Origin: Pseudodesulfovibrio pelocollis
GTDB lineage: Bacteria; Desulfobacterota; Desulfovibrionia; Desulfovibrionales; Desulfovibrionaceae
NCBI RefSeq assembly: GCF_030282845.1
Contig: NZ_JASTWE010000021.1
Coordinates: 1-58,534, forward strand
Reading direction: 5' to 3'
DNA length: 58,534 nucleotides
Below the pieces are notes generated by a model. It was not told where the DNA came from. It was given only the letters and a program-made list of their open reading frames with translations, and did no database searches. Below, in pieces: positions 337 to 39,123 of this stretch. The stretch's first letter is position 1, and each line of letters starts with the position of its first letter. A program made the position numbers and the translations under genes.

Positions 337-368
337 CTTACTTTTGGGCGCTCCGGTCCAAAAGTAAG
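337..368. repeat. Intergenic inverted repeat (11-bp arms)
   Basis: Perfect arms CTTACTTTTGG (337-347) and CCAAAAGTAAG (358-368) flank a 10-base loop. No U-tract follows on either strand, so it is a poor textbook terminator. It resembles the dispersed extragenic palindromes that recur in many genomes, but its copy number cannot be judged from one window. Confidence 0.45.
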
Positions 369-404
369 TCGGCCCGAAGGGACGAAACTCTTCCCACAAT
401 CATC

Positions 405-417
405 CCGCCGAAGGCGG
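405..417 (-). terminator. Short hairpin downstream of the DUF6785-like gene
   Basis: CCGCC-gaa-GGCGG forms a five-pair GC stem about 45 bases past the minus-strand stop codon at 462. It is a candidate 3' end for the four-gene ABC/FtsX operon. It has no T-run, so this is a weak call. Confidence 0.3.
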
Positions 418-461
418 CTTCCTCTTGCATTCTCTTCTCTCTCCCCTCTTCCCTCTTCGCC

Positions 462-7477: not shown

Positions 7478-7480
7478 GGC

Positions 7481-8263: not shown

Positions 8264-8349
8264 TGAGAAATCCCCTTGCGAAACGCTGAAATCAATGGGG
8301 CGGGGCAATCGGTCCTGGACGCTGACGACACGGCGGTTGCGTCCGGCCC

Positions 8350-9123: not shown

Positions 9124-9142
9124 GACAAGCCCTAAGAGCGGG

Positions 9143-9156
9143 AAAAACCGGTTTTT
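9143..9156. promoter_or_regulatory. Palindrome upstream of the FtsX operon
   Basis: A perfect 14-base palindrome, AAAAACCGGTTTTT, sits in the 49-base gap between the deacetylase stop and the permease start. It could be an operator or, read on the minus strand, a short terminator for the upstream gene. There is no further support. Confidence 0.3.
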
Positions 9157-9172
9157 TCGCGATTGTCACGGA

Positions 9173-9958
9173 TCAGGAACCGGGCCTGTCCAGCCGGATC
9201 GGCTTCAGGCCCGACCCGGCCACGGCCGCCAGACATCGGTCGAGAAAGCCAAAGGCCGCGTCGTTCATGCGCTGGTGGTGGAGCATGAACCCCACCCGGC
9301 GAGAGGCCAGCCCGCCCTCGATCTCCCGGAGCAGCGCGTCCAGACCCTCGGCCGGATCGCTCTCGCGCCGGGTGTGCAGATCCACGTTGACCGGGATGTC
9401 GGGCAACCCCTCGGGCGTGGGCACAGCGCCCTGCGCCCCGGCCCAGCGCGACACGGCCACATACCCGGCCTCATGCAGCAGCCGCGCGGTCTGGGCGTCG
9501 AACCGGTTCCACGGCGGGGTGAAGACCGGGCTGAACCGCGCGCCCATGATCGCTTCGAGCCGGGCGCGCCCCCGGGCCAGATCGGCCCGCTTGGCCTCAG
9601 GGGTGCGCTCGTCTCCGAACTCGCCCTTGCGCCCCGCGCGCTGGTGGTTGACGTGCCGCCAGCCGTGCTGATGCCAGCACCACTGGTCGCTGTCTCCGGC
9701 CCATCGGTGCAGCACGTCCCAGCGGGCCGGGGTCAGCCAGGCCGGGGTCACGGCCAGATGCAGGGGCAGCCCGTGCCGCGCGAAAATTTCCAGCATCCGC
9801 TCGCACGCCTCGCCCGGCGCGGCCACATCGTCGGCGCGAAAAAAGACCTCAACACCCGGCGCGGCCCCGGCCAGAAGCGTGTCCACACGGCGCAGGCCGT
9901 CGTCCAGCAGGGATTGCGGGGCGCTCCAGAGCGCGGAGACTGTGGTTTTGACGATCAT
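9173..9958 (-). CDS. Polysaccharide deacetylase family protein
   Basis: A 261-residue protein with the NodB-type deacetylase layout: an acidic metal motif FRADD (residues 40-44), a His-rich metal motif HQHGWRHVNH (96-105) and FTPPWNR (146-152), which corresponds to motif 3 of carbohydrate esterase family 4 relatives. There is no signal peptide, so a cytoplasmic substrate such as a sugar-nucleotide-linked or lipid-linked glycan is likelier than peptidoglycan. It is on the same strand as the LysR gene upstream (89 bp) and the FtsX permease downstream (49 bp). Family membership is fairly clear; the substrate is unknown. Confidence 0.8.
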   Translation of the reverse strand: MIVKTTVSALWSAPQSLLDDGLRRVDTLLAGAAPGVEVFFRADDVAAPGEACERMLEIFARHGLPLHLAVTPAWLTPARWDVLHRWAGDSDQWCWHQHGWRHVNHQRAGRKGEFGDERTPEAKRADLARGRARLEAIMGARFSPVFTPPWNRFDAQTARLLHEAGYVAVSRWAGAQGAVPTPEGLPDIPVNVDLHTRRESDPAEGLDALLREIEGGLASRRVGFMLHHQRMNDAAFGFLDRCLAAVAGSGLKPIRLDRPGS

Positions 9959-10047
9959 GCAGGCCGGAAGCTAGCACACTCACGGCCCTGATGGCAAAAG
10001 GGGAAACAGCGGACGCTCCCCTGACGGACTGCGGCAATCCCGGCGGA

Positions 10048-10941
10048 TCAGGCCACCAACGCCCGCTCGCCGCTCCAGACCGAGCGGACCACGTCGCGAA
10101 ACTCGCGCAGCGGCGAGGTATAGCCCCGGCCAGCCGGGTAGGAGAGGCACAGGGGCACCTGAAGGGTCTCGGGCCAGAGCACGGCCTGGCCCGCGTCGGC
10201 CAGCCGCCTGCCGTCGTCCTCGCGCAGCACGGCCACGCCCATGCCCTCGGCCACCAGCTCGCGCATGATGTTCTCGTCCACGGTCTGCTCCGCCGGATTG
10301 GGCTCCACCCCGCAGGCGGACATGCGCTCGCGCACGGCCACGTGGAAGGGACATCCCCTGAAGGAATATATCCAGGGCAGGGCGGCCAGCCCGCGCCAGT
10401 CGCCCGGGGCCACCCGCCCGGCCATGACCGTGGGGATGGCGATGACCAGCGTCACCGGGGCCACGTACTCGTCGTGGATGCCCTCCTCGCCCCACATGCC
10501 GAAGCGAAAGCCCACGTGCATCTCGCCCGAGCGCAGGGCCGGGGCCGTGTACCGGCTCTGGGAGACGATGAAGGAGAGCTGCACGCCGGACACACTGCCG
10601 CGCATGTGCCGGGCCAGCTCGGCCATGCGCAGGAAGGCGGGGTCCGTGTTCAGCCCCACGATGAGCCGGGACGAGGCCGGAGCCTTGAGCCCGGCCCCGC
10701 GCGAGCGGAAATCCTCCAGGGCCTGGACCGCGCTGCGGGCGTAAGGAAGCAGGGTTTCGCCCTCGATCGTCAGGGCCATGCCCCGGGCCTGGCGCACGAA
10801 CAGCGGATAGCCCAGGGTCTCCTCAAGCTGCCTGATCTGCCCGCTCAGGGCCGACTGGCTGAGAAACAGCGACTCCGCCGCCCGGGTCAGGTTGCCCTCA
10901 AAGGCCACGGCCAGAAAACACTGCAATTTCCGAATATCCAT
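10048..10941 (-). CDS. LysR-family transcriptional regulator
   Basis: A 297-residue LysR protein. Residues 1-60 hold the winged helix-turn-helix (MDIRKLQCFL start, then LTRAAESLFLSQSALSGQI, with LEETLGYPLFVR). Residues 90-295 form the periplasmic-binding-protein-like effector domain. It diverges from the APC transporter across 127 bp that contain a perfect T-N11-A LysR box (10979-10997). By the usual LysR logic it probably controls that transporter and perhaps itself, responding to an amino acid or related metabolite. The downstream deacetylase may be co-transcribed. Confidence 0.93.
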   Translation of the reverse strand: MDIRKLQCFLAVAFEGNLTRAAESLFLSQSALSGQIRQLEETLGYPLFVRQARGMALTIEGETLLPYARSAVQALEDFRSRGAGLKAPASSRLIVGLNTDPAFLRMAELARHMRGSVSGVQLSFIVSQSRYTAPALRSGEMHVGFRFGMWGEEGIHDEYVAPVTLVIAIPTVMAGRVAPGDWRGLAALPWIYSFRGCPFHVAVRERMSACGVEPNPAEQTVDENIMRELVAEGMGVAVLREDDGRRLADAGQAVLWPETLQVPLCLSYPAGRGYTSPLREFRDVVRSVWSGERALVA

Positions 10942-10978
10942 GCGCCCTCCCTGTCCCCTGCGCGTCCTTGGAGTCGAG

Positions 10979-10997
10979 CGTTCGGCTAATCCGAACG
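10979..10997. promoter_or_regulatory. LysR-type operator (T-N11-A box)
   Basis: The arms CGTTCGG and CCGAACG flank CTAAT. The inner T and A sit 11 bases apart, which is the classic LysR recognition geometry. It lies 37 bases from the LysR start and just upstream of the putative transporter promoter, as expected for an activator site. Confidence 0.65.
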
Positions 10998-11016
10998 GTG
11001 CCCCGACAAATTCACA

Positions 11017-11046
11017 TTGGATTTCTTCCGCTCATTCCACGATAAG
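11017..11046 (+). promoter_or_regulatory. Putative promoter of the APC transporter
   Basis: TTGGAT (11017-11022) and GATAAG (11041-11046) are separated by 18 bases. This places a start site about 15 bases before the AGGAAT ribosome-binding site of the transporter, with the LysR box immediately upstream of the -35. Confidence 0.45.
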
Positions 11047-11068
11047 GGCAAAAAATCAAGGCAGGAAT

Positions 11069-12406
11069 ATGACCATGAGTGAACGGAAAACCGGAACGCT
11101 CACCCTGTGCTGCATGATGATCGGCGCGGTGCTCGGCTCGGGCATCGTCATCCTCCCGCCCCTGGCCATCGACACGGCCGGAGCCTGGGCGCTCCCGGCC
11201 TGGGGGCTGACCGCCGCCTTTGGCGTGGCCTTTGCCTACGTCTTCGCCCGGGTGGGCACCCTCTTCCCCGGCGAGGGCGGCGCGGCCGACGCCGTGGAGC
11301 GCGCCTTCGGCCCTGGCGCGCGCAATCTGGCCGCCTGCACCCTGTGCGGGGCTGCCGTGTTCGGCCCGGCAGCGGTCATGCTGACCATCGTGGACTATCT
11401 GCCGCCCGCCATCCAGCCCGGCTCCCTCCTGGCCCGGGGCGCGGCTGCGGCCGCCATCCAGATCGGCTGCGCCCTGATGCTGACAACCGGCCTGCGCACC
11501 ATGAGCCGGGTGGGCACGCTCCTGGCCGTCTCGGCCACGCTCCTGCTGCTGACCGGATCAATCGTCACCCTCGCCCTGCACGCCGGGCCGGACAGCGCAC
11601 ATCAGGCCGTCACCCTGCCGCCCCTCGATCCCCCGGCCATGGGCCGGACCCTGCTGCTGCTCTTCTGGGCCGTGGTGGGCTGGGAGGTGGTGGGCAACTA
11701 CGGGGCCGAGGTGGCCGACCCGCGCCGCACCGTGCCCCGGGCCGCCATCATGGCCGCCACCGTGGTCGGGCTGGTCAGTCTGGCCGTGGCCGCCGGGCTG
11801 CAATACGGCGCGTTCCCGCCCGAGGCGGGCCACGGCGTGGCCGGGCTGCTCCACCCCCTCTTCGGCCCGCTCGCGCCCTGGATCATGTCCGGGCTGGTCG
11901 CGGCCCTGTGCGCCACCACCTACCTGCTCATCGTGGGCGCGGTGGCCCGGCTGGTGGCCCATCTGGCCCGCGACGGCCAACTGCCCGCTGCCCTGGACCG
12001 GCGCAACCGCCACGGCGTACCCCACCGGGTCATCGGTCTCTACACCCTCGCCCATCTCGCCCTCATCGCCCTGGTCTCGCAGGGCATCCTCGACGTGGCG
12101 GGCATCGTGACCATCGCCGACGGCTTCTTCCTGGCCAACGCCCTGCTCGGCACCCTGGCCGCGGCCCGGCTCTTCACCGCCCCCCTGCCCCGGACCGTGG
12201 CCGCGCTCCTGGCCCTTGGCGTGGCCGCCGTGTTCACCCAATCGGCCTGGGCCGTGCTGGCCGCCATCGCGGCCATGGGCCTGCTCACCCTGCGCCGCCC
12301 GCGCCGCCGCACCGGCCCGATCATCGGCCCGACCAGCGGCCCGACCAGCGACCCGACCGGCGACTCGACCATCCACTCGACCGGTGCCCCGGAGCGAGCA
12401 GGTTGA
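11069..12406 (+). CDS. APC-family amino-acid transporter (YjeH-like)
   Basis: A 445-residue inner-membrane protein with about twelve predicted helices. Its opening helix contains IGAVLGSGIVILP, the glycine-rich TM1 substrate motif of amino acid-polyamine-organocation carriers. The overall pattern is closest to the YjeH-type group, which exports neutral amino acids in E. coli. The start ATG at 11069 follows AGGAAT closely. The last ~30 residues are a hydrophilic Pro/Thr/Ser repeat (GPTSGPTSDPTGD) encoded by imperfect 12-base DNA repeats (about 12315-12390). The divergent LysR gene and its operator suggest induction by an amino acid. Whether it exports or imports cannot be read from sequence. 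Confidence 0.85.
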   Translation: MTMSERKTGTLTLCCMMIGAVLGSGIVILPPLAIDTAGAWALPAWGLTAAFGVAFAYVFARVGTLFPGEGGAADAVERAFGPGARNLAACTLCGAAVFGPAAVMLTIVDYLPPAIQPGSLLARGAAAAAIQIGCALMLTTGLRTMSRVGTLLAVSATLLLLTGSIVTLALHAGPDSAHQAVTLPPLDPPAMGRTLLLLFWAVVGWEVVGNYGAEVADPRRTVPRAAIMAATVVGLVSLAVAAGLQYGAFPPEAGHGVAGLLHPLFGPLAPWIMSGLVAALCATTYLLIVGAVARLVAHLARDGQLPAALDRRNRHGVPHRVIGLYTLAHLALIALVSQGILDVAGIVTIADGFFLANALLGTLAAARLFTAPLPRTVAALLALGVAAVFTQSAWAVLAAIAAMGLLTLRRPRRRTGPIIGPTSGPTSDPTGDSTIHSTGAPERAG

Positions 12407-12489
12407 CCGCCTTGACATCGGCGCGGATTCCAACAAGAATTTGCCATGGCGGGCAGGCCCGCCCCAAACCAGAACCCATGGAGCCACAG

Positions 12490-13341
12490 ATGAACATATT
12501 CGGCGAGAGCGTGCCCTTTCACAAGATGCAGGGCTGCGGCAACGATTTCGTGGTCATTGACAACCGCCGCGCCCGCGTGCCCGAACAGGTCATGGCCGAC
12601 TGGGCCAGAAAGATCTGCGCCCGCGCCTTCGGCGTCTGCGCCGACGGGCTCTTCTTCCTTGATGACGCCGACGACCCGGCCCTGGACTACCGCTGGCACT
12701 TCTTCAACTCCGACGGCTCCCGCGCCGAGATGTGCGGCAATGCCTCGCGCTGCGCTGGCAAGCTGGCCCACGCCCTGGGCCTGGCCCCGGCCGAGCACGT
12801 TTTCGGCACCGACGCCGGACCCATCCGGGCCAAGGTGCTCCTCGACGGACCCGAAGCCGGGCGCGTCAAGGTCCGACTCACCCCGCCCAAAGGGCTCGAA
12901 ACCAACATCTCCCTGACCGTGGACGGCGCGCCCCTGACCGTCCACTTCGCCGACACCGGCGTGCCCCACGCCGTGGTCCTGGTGGACGACGTGGCCTCGG
13001 TCAACGTCAAGCAACTCGGCACCAAGCTGCGCTTCCACGAGCACTTCGCCCCGGCCGGGACCAACGTCAACTTCGCCCAGGTCAAGGACCGCTCCACCCT
13101 GCTCCTGCGCACTTACGAGCGCGGCGTGGAAGACGAAACCTACGCCTGCGGCACCGGCGCCTGCGCCACCCAACTGGTGACAAACGCCCTGGGCCTGACC
13201 GACGCCCGCGCCAACCTGACCACCACCGGGGGCGAAATCCTTACCGTCATCCTCGACGGCGACGACATCCACCTCCAAGGCGCGGCAGAACTCACCTTCA
13301 AAGGCGAACTCTACCTCACCCCCCTCGACCTGACGCGATAG
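12490..13341 (+). CDS. dapF: Diaminopimelate epimerase
   Basis: A 283-residue cytoplasmic enzyme that interconverts LL- and meso-diaminopimelate in lysine and peptidoglycan synthesis. Both catalytic cysteines are present: Cys82 in MCGNASRCA and Cys220 in YACGTGACA. The opening HKMQGCGNDFVVID matches the family's N-terminal substrate loop. Length and two-lobe layout are typical. The ATG at 12490 is chosen because GGAG lies six bases upstream; an in-frame ATG at 12478 has no ribosome-binding site. It follows the APC transporter by 83 bp on the same strand. The first Cys motif reads CGNASRC where many homologues have CGNGARC. Confidence 0.95.
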   Translation: MNIFGESVPFHKMQGCGNDFVVIDNRRARVPEQVMADWARKICARAFGVCADGLFFLDDADDPALDYRWHFFNSDGSRAEMCGNASRCAGKLAHALGLAPAEHVFGTDAGPIRAKVLLDGPEAGRVKVRLTPPKGLETNISLTVDGAPLTVHFADTGVPHAVVLVDDVASVNVKQLGTKLRFHEHFAPAGTNVNFAQVKDRSTLLLRTYERGVEDETYACGTGACATQLVTNALGLTDARANLTTTGGEILTVILDGDDIHLQGAAELTFKGELYLTPLDLTR

Positions 13342-28309: not shown

Positions 28310-30955
28310 TCACCCGGCGGCCACACGCTGGATGGTGGCCTCAAGGTGCTCCTTCTCAAAGGGCTTGCTGACGTAGTCGTTCATCCCGGCCTCCAGCGCG
28401 GCCTCGCGGTCGCGGGGGGTGGCGTGGGCCGTGAGGGCGACGATGGGGATGTCGGCCACATGGCGGAAATCCTCGGCCGTGCGGATGAGGCGCGTGACCT
28501 CCATGCCGTTCATGACCGGCATCTGGATGTCCATGAGGATGACGTCGAAGCGGTCGTGGCGAAGGATCTCAAGGCACTTCTCGCCGTTTTCGGCGCAGGT
28601 CACGGCGTGACCCAGGCTTTCGAGCAGCCGTTTGGCCATGAGCATGTTCACCCGCTCGTCCTCCACCAGCAGGATGCGCAGGGGGTTGGCCGCTGCCGCC
28701 GATTCCTCTGGCTCGATCCGGGCGCAGATTCCCCGCTCGGGGACACGGACCTTCACGTTGAACAGGACGGTGGTGCCCACCCCAAGCTCGCTGTCCACCA
28801 CGATGGAGCCGTTCATGAGCCTGACCAGCCGCTTGACGATGGGCAGCCCGAGGCCCACGCCCTGATATTTTCGCGACAGGGAGCCGTCCACCTGGGTGAA
28901 GGCGTCGAAGATGTAGTTGACCTTGCTGTCCGGAATACCGGAGCCGGTGTCGGTCACGGAGAAGAAGAGCCGCTCGTGTCCCGGCTCGCGGTGAGGCAGG
29001 GCATAGGCCTCAAGGATGATGGAGCCCGAGGCCGTGAACTTGATGGCGTTGCCGAGCAGATTGAAGAGCACCTGCCGGATGCGCCCCTCGTCGCCAATGT
29101 AGCAGGGCCGGGCCGAGGAGTCGATGCGGTGTTCGAGGCTCAGCCCCTTTTCGTCGGCCTGGAGCCTGAAGAGGCTCGCACACTGGCGCATGAGCCCGTC
29201 GAGATCAAAGGGCTCCTCATACAGGTCGAGCTTGCCCGCCTCGATCTTGGAGAAGTCGAGCACGTCGTTGAGCACGCGCAGCAGGTTGCGCGAGGACTGG
29301 ATGGCCATGTCCACATAGCCGCGCTGCTCGCCTCCCGTGGCCGAGGCCCGGATGAGCTGGAGCATGCCCATGACGCCGTTCAGGGGGGTGCGCACCTCAT
29401 GGCTGATGTTGGCCAGGAACTCGTCCTTGGCCATGTTGGCCTGCTCGGCCGCCTCCTTGGCCACCACCAGGGCGTCCTCGAACCGCTTGCGCTCGGTGAT
29501 GTCGGTAAAGAACCCGGCCAGGAGCACGCGGCCATACACCCTGACCCGGGCCGAGGATATGTCCACCAGGATATGCTCGCCCGAGCGCGTCAGGCAGGGC
29601 ACGGCCGCGCTGAAGCTCACGTCCTGCCGACTGTGGCGCAAGAAATTCTCGGAGACGGCCTCCAGGTCCTCGGGCGGATGGATGTCGCTGACCCGAATGG
29701 CCCCCACGTCTTCCGGCCCAAGGCCCAGCAGTCGCAAAAAGGCGGGGTTGGCAAACTCGATGGTCATGGTGTTCGGGTCCACCAGACAAATGCCCGCCGG
29801 GTTGTTCTCCAGCAGGGTGCGGTACTGTTCCTCGCTTTCCGAGAGCCGGTTCAGGGCCTCGTTGCGCTCGGCCTCGCGCTCTTCGAGCAGCCGCCCCATG
29901 GTGTCAAAGGCCTTGCCCAGCTGGCCCATCTCGCCGTCGTTGTAGTCGATGCCGCTTGACTGCATGGTGCCGCTGGAGCCCACCCGGCAGGCCGCTTCGG
30001 TCAGCTTCTCCAGGTTGCGGGCCAGGGTACGGCCGCCCGCATACCACGCCAGGAGCAGGGCCAGGGCCAGGGACACGGCAATGGTCACCCCGCCCAGCAC
30101 GGCCTGATCGTTGACCTGTCGAAGCACCTCGGACTCCCTGAAGCCCATGAACATGTACATGTAGGGCGGCTGGTCCGGCCCCAGCCGGACTTGCTCGTAG
30201 GCCACGATGCGGCGCGGCCCGTCAGATCCCTTGGCCCGGATGATGCCAGGTCCGTCCGCCTGGCTGGCGGCCAGGAAGACCTCGTCGCGGATGGGCGTGC
30301 CCGGCGGGGTGGCGTCGCTGGCCGGATGGCGGAAGAGCCTGCGCCCGGCGTGGTCGCAGATGCCCAAAAACGACCCGGGCGGGAAGGACGCCTGATCGAA
30401 CAACTCACCGAAATGACTCAAGTCCGCTCCGATGATGAGGATTCCCCGCATTTCTCCCAAGGGACCGTACACCGGCATGGCAAACGGGAAAATGGGCTTG
30501 AGGATGGCCCGCCCCACCACGAACTCGCCCGCCGCAAACGCGCCGGTCTGTTTCGCCTCGATGACGTGCTTGCGGTCGGAAAAATCGAAGTCATGGGGAC
30601 CGGGCAGGCTTCCGGCCACCACGCGCCCGTCCATATCGAGGAGGAAGGCGTTGGTGTAGATGGGGTTGGCCGAGATGAGCGCAGCCAGAAGGGAGTACAC
30701 ACCGCCCGGGTCGGCGGTCTGCACGGCAGGCAGGGCGGCCACGGTCTGGAGCAGGGTCCGGGTGGAGTCGGCCACTCGGCGCTGCACTTCGGTGTACCCG
30801 CGCAGCAGCGTGGCGGTGTCCTTGCCCGCCATCTCCACGGTGTGCCGCCGGGCGGCCATCTCGTTGAAGGCGAGGACCACGAAGGGCGGCAGGGTGGCCA
30901 TGAGCACCAGGATGACCAGCTTCTTGCGGATGGAGCCGTGGAAGAATCTCAGCAT
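28310..30955 (-). CDS. Hybrid sensor histidine kinase (Cache-HAMP-PAS-HisKA-HATPase-REC)
   Basis: A protein of about 881 residues. TM1 is near residues 10-28. A periplasmic Cache sensor follows (DMDGRVVAGSLPGP, then DFSDRKHV), then TM2 near 300, a HAMP-like linker, and a PAS domain (about 375-490). The dimerisation/phosphoacceptor helix carries ISHEVRTPLNG (His near 519). The ATPase domain has N-, G1- and G2-box motifs (LLGNAIKFTA, DTGSGIPD, GVGLGLPIVKRL). The C-terminal receiver has DVILMDIQMP (Asp near 807). The start is uncertain: ATG 30955 puts the membrane segment at the N-terminus, while ATG 31021 would add a basic, low-complexity 22 residues. It diverges from the receiver-STAS operon and may feed phosphate to it. 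Confidence 0.9.
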   Translation of the reverse strand: MLRFFHGSIRKKLVILVLMATLPPFVVLAFNEMAARRHTVEMAGKDTATLLRGYTEVQRRVADSTRTLLQTVAALPAVQTADPGGVYSLLAALISANPIYTNAFLLDMDGRVVAGSLPGPHDFDFSDRKHVIEAKQTGAFAAGEFVVGRAILKPIFPFAMPVYGPLGEMRGILIIGADLSHFGELFDQASFPPGSFLGICDHAGRRLFRHPASDATPPGTPIRDEVFLAASQADGPGIIRAKGSDGPRRIVAYEQVRLGPDQPPYMYMFMGFRESEVLRQVNDQAVLGGVTIAVSLALALLLAWYAGGRTLARNLEKLTEAACRVGSSGTMQSSGIDYNDGEMGQLGKAFDTMGRLLEEREAERNEALNRLSESEEQYRTLLENNPAGICLVDPNTMTIEFANPAFLRLLGLGPEDVGAIRVSDIHPPEDLEAVSENFLRHSRQDVSFSAAVPCLTRSGEHILVDISSARVRVYGRVLLAGFFTDITERKRFEDALVVAKEAAEQANMAKDEFLANISHEVRTPLNGVMGMLQLIRASATGGEQRGYVDMAIQSSRNLLRVLNDVLDFSKIEAGKLDLYEEPFDLDGLMRQCASLFRLQADEKGLSLEHRIDSSARPCYIGDEGRIRQVLFNLLGNAIKFTASGSIILEAYALPHREPGHERLFFSVTDTGSGIPDSKVNYIFDAFTQVDGSLSRKYQGVGLGLPIVKRLVRLMNGSIVVDSELGVGTTVLFNVKVRVPERGICARIEPEESAAAANPLRILLVEDERVNMLMAKRLLESLGHAVTCAENGEKCLEILRHDRFDVILMDIQMPVMNGMEVTRLIRTAEDFRHVADIPIVALTAHATPRDREAALEAGMNDYVSKPFEKEHLEATIQRVAAG

Positions 30956-31268
30956 GGCTGCCCTGCCGCCCGGCGCACCCCGGCAGCGGACACCACGCCC
31001 GCGCGCCCGCTGATCAGCCATCGGGACCGCCGGAGATTGTCAAAGAGACCCGCTACGCCCATGCGTCACCCTCGATTATTGTCTGCAATACTCCCCTGCC
31101 ATCATTTCTTCTCCATTGAAACCCGTACCATCGGCATGACGCCATGGCAACCGCATTTCTCGTTTTGAACGCCGCCTCAACGGAGTATCGGCACGAGGTG
31201 CTGGACACAAATGTCATTTCTGCCGTAGGCTTGACCTGAAACGAGACCGTACACCGCGAGGAGAGTCC
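30956..31268. other. Divergent intergenic region between kinase and redox operon
   Basis: About 310 bases without a gene. It must hold the promoters for the minus-strand hybrid kinase and the plus-strand receiver-STAS operon. TTGAAC at 31165 has no good -10 at 17 bases, and TGGCAACCGCATTTCT (31144) is only a weak sigma-54-like match, so I make no promoter call. Confidence 0.4.
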
Positions 31269-32006
31269 ATGCCACTCAAGATACTGGTCATCGACGACGA
31301 GCGCCCGACCCTGTCCATGTTCCGCCTCATGCTGGATGCCTACGGGTTCGAGGTCTTCACGGCCGAGAACGGGGAGGAGGGCATCGCCCTGTTCCAGGAG
31401 CACGCCATGCCCATCGTGCTCACGGACATCAAGATGCCGGGCATGGACGGGCTGGAGGTGCTGGCCAGGATCAAGGAGCTGTCGCCCACGACCGAGGTGA
31501 TCATCATCACCGGCCACGGGGACATGGATCTGGCCATCAAGGCCCTGGGCCTCGACGCCACGGACTTCATCAACAAGCCCATCCGCAAGCCCGCTCTGGA
31601 CGCAGCCCTCAGGCGCGCCCGGGAGCGCATCGACCTGGCCAGGAGCCGGGACGAGGATTTTGCCGTGCGTGTGCGCGACGGCGTGGCGGTCATCGAGATT
31701 CGCGGCGCGGTCAACTCCGGCTCCGAGGCCCGGCTCAGGGCCGCCCTTGACGAGGCGCGCGCCGCCTCGGCCGGGCTGGTGCTCTCCTTTTCCGAGAACA
31801 CGTCCATCAACGGGGCGGGCATCGCCCTGCTGACCCAGCTGCTGCTGGACTGTCGCAAAAGCGGCACCCCGGTGGCCATGACCGGGCTCTCCGAAAACTT
31901 CAGGCAGGTCCTGGCCATGGTCGGCATGACCACCCTCGCCCCCCTGTGCGACACCGAGGAGGACGCCCTGGCGTCCATCCTCACCGAGCCAAGGAGCACC
32001 CCATGA
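31269..32006 (+). CDS. Receiver-STAS fusion response regulator
   Basis: A 245-residue cytoplasmic protein. Residues 3-120 are a canonical receiver, with acidic pocket Asp9-Asp10, phosphoacceptor Asp53 in LTDIKMPG and Lys103 in INKP. Residues 130-240 are a STAS domain. Where stand-alone STAS antagonists have D-x-x-N-S-S-G, this one reads SINGAG (Gly182-Ala183), so the usual phosphorylated serine is absent. It would be controlled by aspartate phosphorylation rather than by an RsbW-type kinase. GAGGAG precedes the ATG. Its TGA overlaps the next start (ATGA), opening the five-gene operon. Likely input kinases flank it: the hybrid kinase upstream and the PAS kinase downstream. Confidence 0.9.
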   Translation: MPLKILVIDDERPTLSMFRLMLDAYGFEVFTAENGEEGIALFQEHAMPIVLTDIKMPGMDGLEVLARIKELSPTTEVIIITGHGDMDLAIKALGLDATDFINKPIRKPALDAALRRARERIDLARSRDEDFAVRVRDGVAVIEIRGAVNSGSEARLRAALDEARAASAGLVLSFSENTSINGAGIALLTQLLLDCRKSGTPVAMTGLSENFRQVLAMVGMTTLAPLCDTEEDALASILTEPRSTP

Positions 32007-32545
32007 TCACGACGCATCGCGCCCTGCCCCTGCTGCTGGCCGTCATCCTTTGGGCCGCCCCAGCCCGGGCCGAACTGCCCGCGGCTGGCGACACCCTGCC
32101 GCCCTTCACCATGGCCCCCCTGGCCGTGGAGGAGGACGCGGCCGAACTGGGGCTGGCGGCCAACGGCCCCTTCACCCTCGCCGACCTGCCGACTCCCTAC
32201 GTGCTCGTCGAGATCATCGGGGTGTACTGTCCGGTCTGTCACGAGATGTCGCCGCAGTTGACCCGGCTCACCAAGCGCCTCACGCGGGCCGGGCTCGACT
32301 CGCGCATCACCCTGCTCGGCATCGCCGCAGGGGGTACGGCCATGGAGGTGCGCTACATCCGCCAGCGCGAGTACGCCTTTCCCATCGCCCATGACACGGA
32401 GTACGAAATCCACAGGCTGCTGGGCGAGCCCAAGACCCCCTTCACCATGATCGTGGACCGCAGCGGCAGGGTCCTCTACGCCCATCTGGGCCTTATCCCG
32501 GACATGGACGAACTCTTCAGGCGCATTCAGGCACTGGAAGAATGA
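32003..32545 (+). CDS. TlpA-like periplasmic thioredoxin-fold protein
   Basis: A 180-residue secreted protein. A signal peptide ends at about residue 23 (A-R-A). The thioredoxin-like fold carries GVYCPVCHEM (Cys76, Cys79) and a cis-Pro region TPFTMIVD. It resembles TlpA/ResA redoxins that keep periplasmic or outer-face thiols reduced using electrons from a membrane partner. AAGGAG lies six bases before the ATG. It overlaps both neighbours by four bases. The MauE/DoxX gene two positions downstream is a plausible electron donor. Confidence 0.88.
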   Translation: MITTHRALPLLLAVILWAAPARAELPAAGDTLPPFTMAPLAVEEDAAELGLAANGPFTLADLPTPYVLVEIIGVYCPVCHEMSPQLTRLTKRLTRAGLDSRITLLGIAAGGTAMEVRYIRQREYAFPIAHDTEYEIHRLLGEPKTPFTMIVDRSGRVLYAHLGLIPDMDELFRRIQALEE

Positions 32546-34290
32546 GCAGTGATCGGCCCAGGACCTCTTTGACGGCAAACCCGGGGCTGCCCGGGGACCG
32601 GGAGCCGGGAACCGGACGCCGACTGTTCCACCTCAAGACCCTGTTCGAGGCGGCCACCGAGCTTTCGGCCCCGGCCGACGCCGGGACCACGCTGCGGCGA
32701 TTCCTGCCCGTGGCCATGGGGCCGCTGGGCCTGACCTTCGGCCTGGGCATCGTGCTCGGGCCTGACCGGCTCGACGTGGAAAGCCTCGGGCTCATGCCCG
32801 CCGACAGGGAGCGCTGCCAGGGGGCCGGAGCCGAACTGGCTGACAGATTCTTCCCGGAGGAGCCCCAGGCCGCCGCGCCGCCGCGCCCCACGGTACTGAC
32901 CGGCCCGCATCTGGCCAGTGATCCGCACCTGCCCGCCGGAACCAGCGCCGTGGTGGCCATGCGCCTTGACCAGGACTCCCGCGCAGTGCTGGTCCTCGGC
33001 CCCAGGCTCACGGGAGAGTCCTATGGGCAGGACGAGGCCGAACTGCTCCAGGGGCTGGCCGACATCCTCTCCACCGCCCTGAAAAGGGCCTGCGCCGACG
33101 AGCGCGTCCACACCCTCAACGCCTCCCTGAGCGAGAACAACGACCGCCTCAGGCAGGCCCTCGAGCACATGGAGCAGGCACGCGACGAGCTGGACCGGCA
33201 GGCGTTCCGGCTGCGCACCCTGTTCGAGACATCCCTTGAGCTTTCGAGCCTCAACGATCCCCGCGCCATCCTCGACGCCTTTCTGCTGACGCTGATGGGC
33301 ACCTTCGGCTTCTCCCGGGGATGGATCAGCCTGCATGGTCCCCAGGCCGGACAGGCCGACACCGCCTATCGCGGCCCGGACCCGGGCGAGATGGCGGCAG
33401 TAGCCTCGCCCGATGGCCGCGAGAAGATCCTGGCCCGGTTCGTGGAACTCAAGGACAGAATGCCCCGCGCCAATCAGGCCGAACTGCTCGACGACGCGGA
33501 CGCCGTGGCCGCCCTGCCCGCCCGGGCCGACTTGGCCGTGCTCTTCTCCCTCGACCAGGACTGGCACGGGGCCATCGGCCTGGCCGACCCGCTGCCGGAC
33601 CAGGGCATGGACCCGCAGGGGGTGCAATTCCTGCGCTCGCTGCTCGGCATCTTCATCGTCACCCTGGGCAACGCCTGGCACGGCAGGCAGGTCAGCCAAC
33701 TGAACACGGCCCTGAGCGCCCGCAACGAGGAGCTGCAAGCCACCCTGGATGCCCTGACCTCGGCCAGGGAGGAGGTCACGGTGCAGACCGAGGCCAGGGA
33801 GCGCATCGTCGGGCTGGTCCGGGGCGAGGTGGCCCGCGCCTGGCGCGCCTCCTGGTTCGACGCCTGCATGATGATCCTGGCCGGGGTGGTGCTCGGCGCG
33901 CTCTTCAACTCCGCCAGCCCGGGCGGCATCGAACTGGTTCCCAAATCACTCTTCGCGCCGCCGCCCGCCCTGATCGCGGCCGACGAGGCTCGGCGCATGG
34001 CCGAGGCAGGCGAGGCCGTGATCATCGACGCCCGCCCTGCGGACTTCCACCGGCAGGAGGCCATCCCCGGTTCCGTGAACCTGCCCAAGGAGCTGTTCGA
34101 TTTCGTCTATTCCATGAAGCTGGCCACTCTGGACCCCGAGACCCCGCTGCTCGTCTACGGCCGGACCATCAGCCGTCACTACGACGCGGACGTGGCCCGC
34201 GAACTGAAGCTCCTCGGCCACGGCAACGTCCTGGTCATCGACGGCGGCCTGAAGGCGTGGGAGCGGGCCGGATACGAGGTGATCCGATGA
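32542..34290 (+). CDS. GAF-GAF-TM-rhodanese sensor protein with a cysteine-less rhodanese
   Basis: A 582-residue protein. Two similar GAF-like halves (about 25-185 and 225-385, each opening with the LRTLFE/LKTLFEA pattern) are joined by a helix around 185-225. A second coiled helix (390-435) leads to a single membrane segment near 439-457. By the positive-inside rule (Arg-rich before, none after) the GAF pair is cytoplasmic and the C-terminal rhodanese domain (about 470-582) periplasmic. The rhodanese active-site loop should read Y-C-x4-R; here it is VYGRTISRHYD, with Gly540 in place of the catalytic Cys, so sulfur transfer is very unlikely. It overlaps both neighbours by four bases. I infer a sensor or scaffold that binds a periplasmic thiol or persulfide partner. 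Confidence 0.85.
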   Translation: MSSDRPRTSLTANPGLPGDREPGTGRRLFHLKTLFEAATELSAPADAGTTLRRFLPVAMGPLGLTFGLGIVLGPDRLDVESLGLMPADRERCQGAGAELADRFFPEEPQAAAPPRPTVLTGPHLASDPHLPAGTSAVVAMRLDQDSRAVLVLGPRLTGESYGQDEAELLQGLADILSTALKRACADERVHTLNASLSENNDRLRQALEHMEQARDELDRQAFRLRTLFETSLELSSLNDPRAILDAFLLTLMGTFGFSRGWISLHGPQAGQADTAYRGPDPGEMAAVASPDGREKILARFVELKDRMPRANQAELLDDADAVAALPARADLAVLFSLDQDWHGAIGLADPLPDQGMDPQGVQFLRSLLGIFIVTLGNAWHGRQVSQLNTALSARNEELQATLDALTSAREEVTVQTEARERIVGLVRGEVARAWRASWFDACMMILAGVVLGALFNSASPGGIELVPKSLFAPPPALIAADEARRMAEAGEAVIIDARPADFHRQEAIPGSVNLPKELFDFVYSMKLATLDPETPLLVYGRTISRHYDADVARELKLLGHGNVLVIDGGLKAWERAGYEVIR

Positions 34291-34766
34291 TCGAACTGCT
34301 CCGGCGCATCCTGACCCACCCCTGGCTGGCCCTGGCCTTCCGTCTCTACATCGGCGGGCTCTTCGTCTATGCGGCCATGTACAAGATCAACTACGCGGCC
34401 GAGTTCAGCGAGACCATCGCCTCATACCGGCTGGTGCCCTACTGGGCGGTCAACGCCCTGGCCGTATTCATGCCCTGGACCGAGATCGTCTGCGGCGCGC
34501 TGCTCATCCTGGGGGTGCGGGTCCGGTCTGCGGCAGCGGTCATCGCCGCCCTGCTCGCGGTGTTCACCGTGGCCATCTTCGTCAACCTGCTGTGGGACGC
34601 GCCCATCAGCTGCGGCTGCTTCAAGACCATCGAGGACCCCATCAGCTGGTGGACCGTGCTGCGCGACCTGGCCTGGATCGCCATGACACTTCACGTCTTC
34701 CGGTACGACTCGGTCCTCCAGGCGGACCGGCTCTTCCTCGGCAAGCTCGGGAGGATCGAATCATGA
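34287..34766 (+). CDS. MauE/DoxX-family redox-associated membrane protein
   Basis: A 159-residue protein with four predicted helices and the SCGCF motif (Cys109, Cys111) typical of MauE-type DoxX proteins. In the mau cluster MauE is needed for disulfide chemistry of methylamine dehydrogenase; related proteins pass electrons between quinones and periplasmic thiols. Its overlap with the rhodanese protein and closeness to the TlpA-like gene support a shared thiol-redox job. The start ATG overlaps the preceding TGA. Confidence 0.87.
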   Translation: MIELLRRILTHPWLALAFRLYIGGLFVYAAMYKINYAAEFSETIASYRLVPYWAVNALAVFMPWTEIVCGALLILGVRVRSAAAVIAALLAVFTVAIFVNLLWDAPISCGCFKTIEDPISWWTVLRDLAWIAMTLHVFRYDSVLQADRLFLGKLGRIES

Positions 34767-35083
34767 CCCTGCGAACGGCACTCGCCTGCCTGCTGGCCCT
34801 GGCCCTGACCCTCTCTGCCTGCGCCCCGGACAGGGAGGACCACGCCACCGGCCGGTACACGGCCGCCACCGGCGACACCGACATCGTCCTGACCCTGGCC
34901 GAGAGCGGACGTGGCACCTGGAGCACGGACACCGACGAGATCACCTTCAAGTGGTCCACCCCAAAGGCCGACCATCTGTGGCTGCACACCCGCGAGGGCG
35001 GCGTGATCCAGGGGCGTTTCAATGACGGGCGGCTGACCATCGCCCTGCCCGGCGTGGGAGAACTGGTCTTCGAGCGCCAGTAA
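34763..35083 (+). CDS. Small lipoprotein, end of the redox operon
   Basis: A 106-residue protein with a lipobox L-S-A-C (Cys20). The mature part is a small beta-rich domain of unknown family, with KWSTPKADHLWLHTREGG and a C-terminal LPGVGELVFERQ. GGGAGG precedes the ATG, which overlaps the MauE stop. It may be a periplasm-facing accessory or ligand-binding subunit. I do not recognise it. Confidence 0.75.
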   Translation: MTLRTALACLLALALTLSACAPDREDHATGRYTAATGDTDIVLTLAESGRGTWSTDTDEITFKWSTPKADHLWLHTREGGVIQGRFNDGRLTIALPGVGELVFERQ

Positions 35084-35203: not shown

Positions 35204-36982
35204 ATGATCGTCATCGTTCTGTGCTCGACCATCCTCCAGTTCGCCGCAGGCTGCCTCGCCCTGGGCCTCATCACCCACGCCGGGCGCAAATGGGCCTGGC
35301 TCCTGCTCTCCACGGGCATCTTCATCATGGCCTTCCGCCGCGCCCACACCCTGGTCGGCATCATCGCGGGCCAGGACACCCCCACCCTGCCCTATGAGGT
35401 CCTCGGCCTGATCATCTCGGTCCTCGTCTTCCTCGGCATCCTCCTGATCGGCCCACTGCTGCGCGCCATGCGCGACTCGGCCGAGCGGCTGGCCAAAAGC
35501 GAGGAGCGCTACCGCACCGTGGCCGACTTCACCTCTGGCTGGGAATACTGGCTGGCCCCGGACGGTTCCTTTGTCTATGTCTCACCCGCCTGCGAACAAC
35601 TCACCGGCCACGCGCCACGCGAATTCATGGACGACCCCGGCCTGTTTGCCGCCCTGATCCACCCGGACCATCGCGAAACAGTGCTGGCGGCCATGGCCAG
35701 CGTGGACGGCATGAGCAAACCCGCATCCTTTGACTTCAAGATCATCGACAGGCAGGGCAACGAACACTGGGTGGCCCACAGCAGCCTGCCCGTGTTCTCG
35801 GACAGCGGCGCCTACCTTGGCATACGCGGCTCGGCCAGGGACATAGACCACCGCAAGCGCCTCGAAGACGAGCTGCGGGCCAGCCGCGCCCTGTATGAAA
35901 GTCTGGTCCAGAACGCCCACTGCCTCGTATTGCGCCTGGACCGCGAAGGCGTCGTCACCTTTGCCAACCGCTTCGCTCTTGAGCATTTCCAGTGCCCGGT
36001 GTCAGCCCTGATCGGCAGACGGCTGACCGACCTGCTGGCTGAGGGACGCAGATCCGACCAGGACCGGGCGGCCCACCAGGAGATGCTGGCCGACCTGACC
36101 AGGACCCTGGCCTCGGGCGAGCGCATGGATTTCGAGTGCGAGATCGTGGGCCGCGGAGGTGGCCGGTTCTGGACGGAGTGGATCAGCACGGCGGTGCCGG
36201 GCCATCAGGGTGGAATCAGCGAGTTTGTCTGCGTGGGCATCGACGTGACCCGGCGCAAGGAGCTGACCCGACTCAAGGAAGACATGACGCGCATCGTGCG
36301 CCACGACCTCAAGTCGCCGCTCTCGGGCATCATCGGCATCCCGCGCATCATCAGGAAGGAGGAGAACATCACCCCCCGGCAGGCCGAGATGCTCAAGGCC
36401 GTGGAGGACGCCGGAACCATGATGCTCGCCCTGATCAACCAGTCGCAGGAACTCTACAAGCTGGAAACCGGCACCTACGAGTTCCGGTTCGAGGAATTCG
36501 ACCTGACGGCCATGCTGCGCGAGGTGGTCACCAACACCCAGCTCGGCCGCGACCGGCCCGTGCCCGTGCCCATCACCGTGGACGGCCGCCCCGCCGAGGA
36601 GGCCGGACCGGTGCGCCTGTGCGCCGAGCGGCCGCTGATCTACTCCATGCTCTGCAACCTGATCAAGAACGCGGTGGAGGCAAACGAGGGCAAGCCCGTG
36701 ACCGTGGATATCCACACGGGCGAGGACTGCCGCATCAGCATCGCCAATGCAGGGGTGGTCCCTGTGTCCATGCAGACGAAATTTTTCGAGAAGTATTCCA
36801 CCGAGGGCAAGCGGGGCGGCCTCGGGCTCGGCACCTACAGCGCCCGGCTGGTGGCCGAGCAGCACGGCGGGTCCATCGCCATGTGTTCGTCACCGGAATC
36901 GGGCACCACGGTCACGGCCCGGATTCCCCTCAGGCAACCCGACACGGCGTGCCGGTCCAGCACGGACCGGAAACAGCCATGA
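35204..36982 (+). CDS. PAS-PAS sensor histidine kinase
   Basis: A 592-residue kinase. Three N-terminal membrane helices (about 3-90) have almost no periplasmic loop. PAS domains follow at about 100-220 (FVYVSPACEQLTG) and 230-350 (VVTFANRFALEHF), each with a PAC-like tail. The phosphoacceptor helix carries IVRHDLKSPLSGIIG (His near 367). The ATPase domain has NLIKNAVEAN and GGLGLGTYSARLVAEQHGG. It has no receiver of its own. It lies 120 bp after the redox operon on the same strand and is a natural partner for the receiver-STAS protein. GGAG precedes the ATG. Confidence 0.92.
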   Translation: MIVIVLCSTILQFAAGCLALGLITHAGRKWAWLLLSTGIFIMAFRRAHTLVGIIAGQDTPTLPYEVLGLIISVLVFLGILLIGPLLRAMRDSAERLAKSEERYRTVADFTSGWEYWLAPDGSFVYVSPACEQLTGHAPREFMDDPGLFAALIHPDHRETVLAAMASVDGMSKPASFDFKIIDRQGNEHWVAHSSLPVFSDSGAYLGIRGSARDIDHRKRLEDELRASRALYESLVQNAHCLVLRLDREGVVTFANRFALEHFQCPVSALIGRRLTDLLAEGRRSDQDRAAHQEMLADLTRTLASGERMDFECEIVGRGGGRFWTEWISTAVPGHQGGISEFVCVGIDVTRRKELTRLKEDMTRIVRHDLKSPLSGIIGIPRIIRKEENITPRQAEMLKAVEDAGTMMLALINQSQELYKLETGTYEFRFEEFDLTAMLREVVTNTQLGRDRPVPVPITVDGRPAEEAGPVRLCAERPLIYSMLCNLIKNAVEANEGKPVTVDIHTGEDCRISIANAGVVPVSMQTKFFEKYSTEGKRGGLGLGTYSARLVAEQHGGSIAMCSSPESGTTVTARIPLRQPDTACRSSTDRKQP

Positions 36983-37422: not shown

Positions 37423-37458
37423 TTGGACTGGATGAGACCGTGAAACCGGGAGGTGCGC

Positions 37459-39123
37459 ATGGCCCCGATTTTCGAGAAGACGGCACAGGACGGCGACTGG
37501 CTCCTGCCGGAAAACGCCCGCAAGCAGCTTGAGGACGCCTTTGCCCATCTCAAGAATCCCGTGACCCTCGAACTCTTCACCCGCTCTGGCGTCAACGACG
37601 AGTTCGCGGACTTCACGGCCCGATTCGCCGGAGACCTCGCACGGATGTTTGACACCATCACCCTGACCCGGCACAACATCCCCTCGCCCCGGGCCGACGA
37701 GCTGGGCGTGACCGCCTCGCCCACCCTGTGCGTGGCCCCGGAACGCTGTCATGTCCGGTTTCTGGGCGCGCCTCTGGGCGAGGAGGCCAAGTCGTTCATC
37801 ACCGCAATCCTCCTCGCCTCCCTGGAGACCAGCACCCTTTCCGAACCCTCCCTGGCCCTGCTCGACGCCCTTGACGGCGAGCGGCTGGTCCAGGTCTTTG
37901 TCAGCCCCACCTGCCCCTATTGCCCTGGGCAGGTCATGCACGCGATCAAGTGCGCCATGGCCCGGCCCAAGCTGATCCGGGCCGAGTGCGTGGAAATGAG
38001 CGAGAACCCGGAACTGGCCGACCGCCACCAGGTGGGGTCCGTGCCCCACACCGTGTTCAACGACGGGGCGCACACCGCCCTGGGCCTGATGCCCGAGGAA
38101 CGGTTCGTGGCCGAGTTGGTCCATCTCAAGTCCGCCGAGGAACTGCTCCGGGAGGGCGTGCTGCCGGGCGCGGACCGGGGCGGATACGGCACCATCGAGC
38201 CGGGCGAACTCGATCTGGTCATCGTCGGAGCCGGACCGGCCGGACTCACGGCTGGCATCTACGCCGCCCGGGCCGGGCTGCGCACCGTGATCCTCGAAAA
38301 AGGCATCGTGGGCGGCCAGGTGGCCCTGACCCCGGTGGTGGAGAACTACCCCGGCTTTGTCAGCGTGCCGGGCAAGCAGCTCATGGACATCATGACCGAG
38401 CACGCCCGCCAGTACGTGCCCGTGCACGAGGGCGAGGGCGTGGAGCGCATCGAACCGGGCGAGACCTTCAGCGTGACCACCAACCGGGGCGCGTACTCGG
38501 CCCGGGCGATCATCCTGGCCACGGGCGCGACCTACAGGCGGCTGGGCGCGCCCGGCGAGGAGCGCTATTTCGGACGCGGGGTCAACTTTTGCGCCTCCTG
38601 CGACGGCTACCTGTACAAGGGGAAAAAGGCCGCCGTGGTGGGCGGCGGCAACACGGCCCTGACCGACGCCCTGCACCTTGCCAGCCTGGGCGTGGAGGTG
38701 ACCATCATCCACCGCCGCGACACCTTCAACGCTCAGGTACCCCTGGTCGAGTCCGTGAAGCGCGCGGGCATCCCCGTGCTCTGGAACACCGAGGTCGAGG
38801 AGATCCTGGGCGACGAGCGGCGGGTCAGCGGGCTGCGCCTGCGCACCGCCAAGGACGGCTCGACCCGCGACCTGCCCGTGGACGCGGTCTTCGTGGCCGT
38901 GGGCCAGAGCGCGGTGGCCGACCTGGCCCGGAGCTTGGGCGCGGACCTGGACGAGGGCGGGTTCGTGCGCGTGGACCGGGCCATGCGCACCAGCGTGCCG
39001 CGTGTCTACGCGGCGGGCGATCTGGTGGGCGGGCTCCAGCAGATCGTCACCGCCATCGGCGAAGGCTCGGTGGCAGCCATGAGCGCCTTTGAGGACATCA
39101 GCCACCCCCATTGGGAGAAGTGA
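37459..39123 (+). CDS. Thioredoxin reductase with fused N-terminal disulfide oxidoreductase (AhpF-like)
   Basis: A 554-residue flavoprotein. Residues 1-220 hold two thioredoxin folds; only the second has an active site, CPYC (152-155). Residues 245-550 form a thioredoxin-reductase module with FAD motif VIVGAGPAGLTAG, NAD(P)H motif VVGGGNTALTDALHL and redox-active CASC (378-381). This is the AhpF plan: electrons pass from NAD(P)H and FAD through CASC to the fused CPYC domain and then to an external thiol partner. The usual CATC is CASC here. GGGAGG lies about five bases before the ATG at 37459; a GTG six bases earlier is possible. No ahpC is adjacent, so the acceptor is unknown. Confidence 0.9.
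   Translation: MAPIFEKTAQDGDWLLPENARKQLEDAFAHLKNPVTLELFTRSGVNDEFADFTARFAGDLARMFDTITLTRHNIPSPRADELGVTASPTLCVAPERCHVRFLGAPLGEEAKSFITAILLASLETSTLSEPSLALLDALDGERLVQVFVSPTCPYCPGQVMHAIKCAMARPKLIRAECVEMSENPELADRHQVGSVPHTVFNDGAHTALGLMPEERFVAELVHLKSAEELLREGVLPGADRGGYGTIEPGELDLVIVGAGPAGLTAGIYAARAGLRTVILEKGIVGGQVALTPVVENYPGFVSVPGKQLMDIMTEHARQYVPVHEGEGVERIEPGETFSVTTNRGAYSARAIILATGATYRRLGAPGEERYFGRGVNFCASCDGYLYKGKKAAVVGGGNTALTDALHLASLGVEVTIIHRRDTFNAQVPLVESVKRAGIPVLWNTEVEEILGDERRVSGLRLRTAKDGSTRDLPVDAVFVAVGQSAVADLARSLGADLDEGGFVRVDRAMRTSVPRVYAAGDLVGGLQQIVTAIGEGSVAAMSAFEDISHPHWEK

Follow-up and report, generated by a model that had tools for sequence, protein, structure and literature searches.

A conserved operon of Desulfobacterota with a cysteine-less transmembrane rhodanese and a possible role in inside-out control of periplasmic thiol redox proteins

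Gene content of the cassette

A cassette of five overlapping genes lies at positions 31269-35083 (+ strand) of Pseudodesulfovibrio pelocollis contig NZ_JASTWE010000021.1 (assembly GCF_030282845.1, forward strand), a stretch of 58,534 nt that was analysed whole and that we call the window. The open reading frames encode, in order, a receiver-STAS protein, a TlpA-like thioredoxin, a protein with two GAF domains, a transmembrane (TM) helix and a rhodanese domain (GAF-GAF-TM-rhodanese, shortened to GGR), a MauE/DoxX membrane protein, and a small lipoprotein (Table 1). As the original prediction had stated, neighbouring genes overlap by four bases throughout (4/4 junctions, each an ATGA), and the domain make-up it proposed for the first four proteins was borne out by Pfam, with the GAF domains, which are below the cut-off in Pfam, recovered by AlphaFold2 and Foldseek. 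GGR is probably the input and transmission protein of the set.

The receiver-STAS protein carries the Asp-Thr-Lys signature of two-component receivers, with the phospho-acceptor Asp53, Thr81, and Lys103 each present in 39 of 39 aligned rows, the window included. RsbV/SpoIIAA partner switches likewise use a STAS fold as a protein-protein switch. Unlike them, the receiver-STAS protein has a joined receiver Asp, and we found no Ser or Thr at the aligned phosphorylation site of its STAS domain. That site is Gly182 in all 39 rows, in the column that carries the phospho-Ser in RsbV/SpoIIAA.

Both thiol proteins of the cassette keep their cysteines. C76 and C79 of TlpA, which has a signal peptide by sequence reading, are invariant in 27 aligned rows, and so are C109, G110, and C111 of MauE across 27 rows. 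The cassette therefore has the makings of a MauD/MauE-type redox pair, a MauE-family membrane protein with a cysteine pair and a TlpA-like CxxC protein. MauE probably has four helices with its CGC pair toward the periplasm; its hydropathy profile gave three clear peaks, not four, and a MauE profile searched against solved structures returned nothing up to E 1. The lipoprotein matched no Pfam family above the cut-off. Its AlphaFold2 model is a confident eight-stranded fold (mean pLDDT, the predicted local distance difference test, of 85, with a core of about 96), for which the structure matches in the PDB were weak and mostly small beta-barrels (best E 0.01). Since it is co-conserved with the cassette, the lipoprotein may pair with TlpA, with MauE, or with the rhodanese domain. 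The window gave no Rfam match at the gathering score and no tRNA, and a promoter and terminator scan of it was uninformative.

Table 1. Features of the cassette and its surroundings, with three loci used for comparison. Positions are those of the window unless a locus is named.
Feature	Position	Strand	Basis and remarks
Receiver-STAS protein, 245 residues	31269..32006	+	Pfam Response_reg and STAS
TlpA-like thioredoxin, 180 residues	32003..32545	+	Pfam AhpC-TSA/Redoxin; Cys76-Pro-Val-Cys79
GGR, 582 residues	32542..34290	+	GAF, long helix, GAF, long helix, TM helix, pseudo-rhodanese; Pfam, AlphaFold2, Foldseek
GGR single TM helix, residues 439-458	33856..33915	+	AlphaFold2 helix; Lys/Arg bias
GGR degenerate catalytic loop, G540-R-T-I-S-R-H-Y-D548	34159..34185	+	Gly in place of Cys
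MauE/DoxX membrane protein, 159 residues	34287..34766	+	Pfam MauE 1.2e-26, DoxX; Cys109-Gly-Cys111
Lipoprotein, 106 residues	34763..35083	+	Lipobox Cys20 by sequence reading; eight-stranded beta fold predicted
Hybrid kinase	28310..31021	-	Cache-PAS-HisKA-HATPase-receiver; flanks the cassette
PAS-PAS kinase	35204..36982	+	Start 120 bp past the lipoprotein stop
AhpF-like fusion protein	37453..39123	+	Protein-disulfide-oxidoreductase-like thioredoxin part fused to thioredoxin-reductase part
L191 (G000:C9:46000-62000): Peripla_BP_6 protein, kinase, receiver-STAS	3179..12491		Adjoined by genes for a TlpA-like protein and formate dehydrogenase alpha
L171: GAF protein	3..1728	-	Beside stand-alone STAS genes
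L172: GAF protein with class III adenylate/guanylate cyclase domain	5251..8094	-	Beside stand-alone STAS genes

Fold and topology of the transmembrane pseudo-rhodanese

Pfam matched the rhodanese domain of GGR at 1.5e-14. An AlphaFold2 model built with 46 sequences (mean pLDDT 88.6, predicted template modelling score 0.52) consists of two GAF-like domains, long connecting helices, the TM helix, and the rhodanese domain, and Foldseek matched it to tandem-GAF/phytochrome structures and to a rhodanese (6mxv), so that the PF00581 profile and the structural comparison both support the rhodanese fold. The Foldseek TM-scores to the whole model were low (about 0.2), which is not surprising for a chain of several domains whose relative placement is uncertain.

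Lys and Arg were more numerous in the 20 residues before the TM helix than in the 25 after it in 39/39 rows, the window protein included (means 5.0 versus 1.2). By the positive-inside rule, this excess on the N-terminal side predicts cytosolic GAF domains and a periplasmic rhodanese domain, in agreement with the orientation proposed earlier. A simple reading of this topology has to contend with a hydropathy stretch from residue 54 (1.88) that equals the TM stretch from residue 437 (1.87); since it falls within helix 47-62 and strand 67-72 of the first modelled GAF domain, we did not count it as a membrane helix.

The loop of active rhodaneses is given as Cx4R/T or Cx5R in an excerpt of PMC10135228. 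In GGR this loop reads VYG540-RTISR, which is the Cx4R catalytic loop with Gly in place of Cys. The catalytic cysteine that marks an active sulfurtransferase is thus absent, and the replacement by Gly540 that had been noted for the window protein proved to be lineage-wide. Gly540, Ser544, Asp548, Asp496, and Arg498 were present in 39/39 aligned GGR rows, the window included, and no cysteine was found anywhere within the rhodanese domain in any of them. A second set of 46 rows, which comprises the window protein and named contigs and shares some members with the first, likewise showed no variation at Gly540 and Ser544. An annotation error at Gly540 was rejected on the strength of these two sets, and the invariance of loop residues after loss of the catalytic one indicates that the loop is kept under constraint. 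Eight loci (L036, L058, L066, L070, L073, L075, L076, and L077) were left out of the 39-row alignment as short, cut, interrupted, or unfused; the first six show Gly at the loop, and the unfused L076 and L077 show Cys.

Lacking cysteine, the rhodanese domain is itself unable to carry a thiol or persulfide. The conserved reactive cysteine to be expected of a thiol or persulfide sensor is missing from this domain and is present in TlpA and MauE, so that thiol sensing through the cysteines of these two proteins, rather than by the rhodanese itself, is possible. According to a portion of PMC10135228, inactive rhodanese domains are rather regarded as mediators of protein-protein interaction.

Conservation of the cassette among relatives

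Among 148 near relatives, 62 matched GGR at E 1e-5, of which 46 (own genome included) reached E 1e-24 or better; most of the remainder are other rhodaneses. A class sample contained GGR in 55 of 297 genomes at E below 1e-75, and a phylum sample contained the full GAF form in 9 of 395. A scan of named genomes with a MauE alignment gave 56 loci, in taxa that include Pseudodesulfovibrio, Desulfonatronum, Desulfomicrobium, Humidesulfovibrio, Desulfobacula, Desulfamplus, Desulfarculus, Syntrophobacteraceae, and Desulfoferrobacter suflitae DRH4.

The five-gene order was intact in 40 of the 48 loci of the first fetch, a count that takes in L036, where a contig end cuts the receiver, and L073, where GGR is interrupted. 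The eight exceptions were contig ends (L043, L074, and L075), loci with GGR apart (L058 and L066), and other rhodaneses (L076, L077, and L078). In the named loci, a TM-rhodanese was found by profile in 52 and the five genes in order in 45. We therefore rejected a chance cluster, as the order is kept over several families; conservation of this kind supports the cassette as a real unit joining a phosphorelay to periplasmic thiol proteins. The gene overlaps were less conserved than the gene order. In the 40 ordered loci, a four-base overlap occurred at the receiver-TlpA junction in 6, at TlpA-GGR in 11, at GGR-MauE in 38, and at MauE-lipoprotein in 29; L031 and L034 were alone in having it at each of the four. 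Each start was taken as the one nearest the upstream stop, a choice that favours overlaps. At L073 (G143:C123), a TAG stop interrupts the GGR frame in an otherwise complete operon.

GGR stands apart in three genomes (G048, G049, and G283), each of which nevertheless has an intact TlpA-MauE-lipoprotein set at another place (3/3). Four genomes without GGR (G001, G074, G142, and G148) had no cassette-grade MauE or TlpA; three of them gave no MauE or TlpA match at all and G001 gave only weaker ones, with G142 only 66% complete.

An upstream binding protein-kinase pair

The cassette is only part of an operon in many relatives, and in this respect the five-gene description, sound as a conserved unit, fell short. 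Of 83 anchored loci, 56 were GAF-type, and in 42 of these a histidine kinase precedes the receiver; in 36 a Peripla_BP_6 protein also precedes the kinase. The full operon thus has seven genes, encoding the binding protein, the histidine kinase, receiver-STAS, TlpA, GGR, MauE, and the lipoprotein, and all seven were found in 34 of the 56 named loci. Representative kinases contain sCache_3_2, HAMP, PAS, HisKA, and HATPase domains. With a kinase and often a binding protein upstream of the receiver, the phosphorelay usually has its own receptor.

The window genome has close relatives of the binding protein and kinase on contig C9 (60% and 51% identity to those of L044) and remoter relatives of both elsewhere (38-39% for the binding protein and 30% for the kinase). 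Only two matches in this genome span both receiver and STAS. The second belongs to L191 on C9, where a TlpA-like gene adjoins the pair and a receiver-STAS gene, as does a formate dehydrogenase (FDH) alpha gene whose in-frame TGA presumably encodes selenocysteine. Because the only close binding protein-kinase pair found in the window genome sits on C9 with this second receiver-STAS gene, the cassette receiver and the C9 receiver-STAS protein may share one kinase.

Two kinase genes flank the cassette in the window (Table 1), and the PAS-PAS kinase is also beside it in the two nearest relatives (L031 and L032). We rejected both as general partners, since among the locus maps compared they were seen beside the cassette only in close relatives of the window and the widespread partner is the binding protein-kinase pair, though either could serve the cassette in this genome. 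Farther downstream lies a gene for an AhpF-like fusion protein.

Exchange of input domains and loss of the catalytic cysteine

Other families of the phylum have a cyclic nucleotide-binding domain (CNBD; PF00027 on representatives) in place of the GAF pair, with the same TM-Gly-rhodanese. At L139-L149, such a protein is encoded with MauE and mostly also with the lipoprotein, TlpA, or both, and at L150-L155 the CNBD, TM helix, pseudo-rhodanese, and MauE form one polypeptide, followed by the lipoprotein gene. This natural fusion suggests contact between the two membrane parts. The flanks fetched for L139-L155, some of them short, gave no response regulator or STAS profile match, leaving no obvious output for a signal travelling inward at these loci. 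In two further lineages (f21 and f23), short Gly-rhodaneses without a cytosolic domain occur with MauE, and in f23 also with TlpA. Family f56 of the CNBD type (L139, L140, L153, and L154) has NfeD and SPFH/Band 7 genes upstream, identified on L139 alone and by similarity cluster in the other three.

GAF proteins related to GGR and lying outside the family adjoin stand-alone STAS genes at L171 and L172. That of L172 ends in a class III cyclase domain instead of a rhodanese, an arrangement which suggests that STAS acts on GAF and GAF on what follows.

We compared 160 TM-rhodanese domains, reduced to 114 by removal of near copies, in a tree whose rows are 70 GAF/Gly, 16 CNBD/Gly (labels partly set by motif pattern), 6 Gly without a sensor, and 22 Cys without a sensor. 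A cytosolic sensor domain is therefore present in 86 of 92 Gly rows versus 0 of 22 Cys rows, and we found no sensor-fused homologue that retains the catalytic cysteine (0 of 86 rows). A branch with support 100/97 has all Cys rows on the same side. The Gly forms branching nearest to them have no cytosolic domain and keep MauE, with TlpA in one lineage. One of the six sensorless Gly rows, L173, falls in the CNBD clade without a Pfam CNBD match. These positions suggest that the cysteine was likely lost first and the sensor gained later, an order not proven in view of the midpoint root, the unsettled bootstrap, and the sampling of Cys rows with a Gly-trained profile. Short Desulfobacterota TM-rhodaneses with the catalytic cysteine also adjoin MauE, in 18 of the 20 loci L200-L219 and at L076.

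Formate dehydrogenase near the operon

In 20 of 30 chosen genomes, an FDH alpha gene lies within 10 kb of the Gly-rhodanese versus 0.44 expected (median two copies per genome), a count inflated by relatedness and by the fact that the genomes were picked partly with knowledge of their neighbourhoods. Clusters of FdhA, FdhB, FdhE, or FdhD, with membership set by similarity and representatives alone identified (Pfam and TIGR01553), were found in the flanks of 40 of the 83 anchored loci, 36 of the 40 being GAF-type. At L157 and L158, of the GAF-less family f23, FdhA-FdhB-FdhE and TM-rhodanese-MauE-TlpA lie on one strand. The binding protein-kinase pair was within 5 kb of FDH in seven of eight genomes of the same genus, three of the seven being without GGR, and in the window genome FDH sits with the second receiver-STAS locus and not with the cassette.

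FdhAB of N. vulgaris has an allosteric surface disulfide that gives an O2-stable enzyme with negligible activity, reduction of which activates it, and C872 is named as a switch cysteine, as set out in part of PMC13397495. We placed the switch cysteines, residues 845 and 872, by counting in an alignment to 6sdr. Cys845 is presumably the disulfide partner of C872. Both were present in 20 of 21 operon-adjacent FdhA copies with the region covered and in 7 of 7 copies at binding protein-kinase loci, two of which repeat copies already counted. With the switch cysteines kept and FDH genes often beside the operon, FdhA is a candidate client of the TlpA relay.

Several observations count against this link. 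Ten of the 30 chosen genomes had no FDH alpha gene within 10 kb, including the window genome, G004 (86 kb), and G405 (14 kb), and eight of the ten have GGR and FDH on separate contigs. In profile searches of fetched flanks, FDH alpha appeared at no more than 24 of the 83 anchored loci and 13 of the 56 named ones, and no FdhA was detected at the fetched CNBD-type loci by the profile used. Every one of the 36 genomes tested had FDH alpha, whether or not it had GGR, and the adjacent FdhA of L052 has neither switch cysteine.

Discussion

These comparisons of sequences and predicted structures lead us to give roughly even weight, for and against, to a model in which the operon is an inside-out transmembrane control unit for a periplasmic MauE/TlpA thiol-redox relay, with FDH as a candidate target. 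In this model, a periplasmic ligand acting through the binding protein and the sCache kinase would change phosphorylation of Asp53 on receiver-STAS, and STAS would dock onto the GAF pair of GGR, as suggested by the GAF relatives outside the family that adjoin stand-alone STAS genes. The signal would then run down the signalling helices and across the single TM helix to the Cys-less rhodanese, which would serve as a protein-binding domain gripping MauE; the occurrence of both in one polypeptide in some lineages is consistent with such a grip. Gripping would open or close electron flow between the CGC pair of MauE and the CPVC pair of TlpA, and TlpA would set the disulfide state of a periplasmic client, for which FdhA is the candidate in many of these bacteria. 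The fuller proposal, that phosphorelay or cyclic nucleotide commands pass through one TM helix and a Cys-less rhodanese to a MauE/TlpA relay that throws the disulfide switch of a periplasmic FDH, is a tentative one that we regard as doubtful as a whole. Most points favour flow from inside to outside, without proving it, among them that the periplasmic module is kept and the cytosolic sensor modules are exchanged, and that in the GAF relative of L172 a cyclase takes the C-terminal place beside stand-alone STAS genes.

Against this model it must be said that the GGR family is scattered, with several genomes of the same genus lacking GGR, and that a kinase of this kind is absent just upstream in 14 of the 56 GAF-type loci, the window among them, in part at contig ends. 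The GAF domains could also sense a ligand without STAS.

The opposite direction of flow is the less likely one, and we judge it improbable. Here the state of periplasmic thiols, persulfides, or oxidants would be relayed by TlpA and MauE to the pseudo-rhodanese and from there to the GAF pair and receiver-STAS, much as the original prediction had held that periplasmic thiol or persulfide state is read and passed inward. Real thiol proteins do adjoin a receiver protein in a conserved order, the topology permits a signal either way, and LapD work reports bi-directional transmembrane signalling (PMC5231407). The inward claim nevertheless went unsupported: the rhodanese domain is free of cysteine in every aligned row, the phosphorelay often has its own receptor in the binding protein-kinase pair (36 of 56 GAF-type loci), the inputs are swapped for CNBDs at loci without a response regulator or STAS match in the fetched flanks, and Gly forms without any cytosolic domain occur with MauE.

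To a similar degree, we think it unlikely that the operon serves to mature periplasmic proteins, as MauD/MauE do or as in apocytochrome c or FDH assembly, with GGR as a scaffold and the regulators tuning expression or activity. The pairing of MauE with a TlpA-like partner would fit such a set, as would FDH structural or accessory genes in the flanks of nearly half of the anchored loci (40/83). In contrast, Pfam found no DNA-binding domain in the receiver-STAS or GAF proteins, which argues for control at the protein level, and 86 of the 92 Gly rows link a sensor module to the periplasmic domain across the membrane. Least probable is a purely internal control of receiver-STAS by GGR, in which the GAF pair would sense a cytosolic ligand and sequester STAS at the membrane, with rhodanese and MauE as a mere anchor: GAF-STAS neighbours do occur with a protein that lacks the rhodanese, and against this stand the five rhodanese residues kept in all 39 GGR rows (G540, S544, D548, D496, and R498), the fusion of MauE in six loci, and the retention of TlpA-MauE-lipoprotein in trans in the three genomes checked.

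The inside-out model likens GGR to known systems at several points. LapD-LapG is a degenerate cyclic-di-GMP receptor controlling a periplasmic protease, with degenerate GGDEF/EAL domains, HAMP, and a periplasmic PAS-like output. It shares with GGR a cytosolic ligand module, a membrane passage, a dead domain used for binding, and a periplasmic output. In contrast to LapD, GGR has no GGDEF, EAL, or HAMP domain, its output is a pseudo-rhodanese by MauE/TlpA, and a two-component system belongs to the operon in many relatives. By analogy, GGR may work like a LapD-type receptor without being a member of that group; LapD itself is described in part of PMC3032553 as an established inside-out receptor.

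The redox half of the cassette has its own parallels. MauD and MauE act in methylamine dehydrogenase maturation, and there too a MauE-family membrane protein is paired with a TlpA-like CxxC protein; the cassette differs by its link to a signalling chain and to a dead rhodanese, with FDH nearby in many cases, and no mau genes turned up among the annotated neighbours, though no search was aimed at them. The mycobacterial membrane-associated oxidoreductase complex of DoxX, SodA, and SseA also combines a DoxX-type protein with a rhodanese-family protein, in thiol stress. SseA is a sulfurtransferase, whereas the rhodanese of the cassette is Cys-less, membrane-tethered, and joined to a GAF or CNBD input. 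The short Cys TM-rhodanese and MauE pairs (L076 and L200-L219) resemble the cassette in placing a homologous TM-rhodanese beside MauE and differ from it in keeping the catalytic cysteine, with no cytosolic sensor domain in the 22 Cys tree rows.

All parts of the cassette except the lipoprotein thus belong to known families, and what is new, as far as we know, is their combination and the loss of the cysteine wherever a sensor domain occurs. The earlier statement that no described system has this set stands in so far as we found none in the open-licence PubMed Central literature, where absence is weak evidence.

Most signals pass into cells. To our knowledge, there are few well-understood cases of bacterial signalling outward to control a protein beyond the inner membrane, and if the inside-out model is true, GGR would add one that acts on thiol chemistry. 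The evolutionary pattern is clear in the tree, where sensor domains are confined to forms on the side that has lost the catalytic cysteine. If the FDH link holds, sulfate reducers would have in this operon a named candidate for the agent that sets the disulfide switch of their periplasmic, O2-tolerant CO2 reductase. Were the fuller proposal true, the cell could switch CO2 and formate chemistry beyond its membrane on or off and protect FDH from O2.

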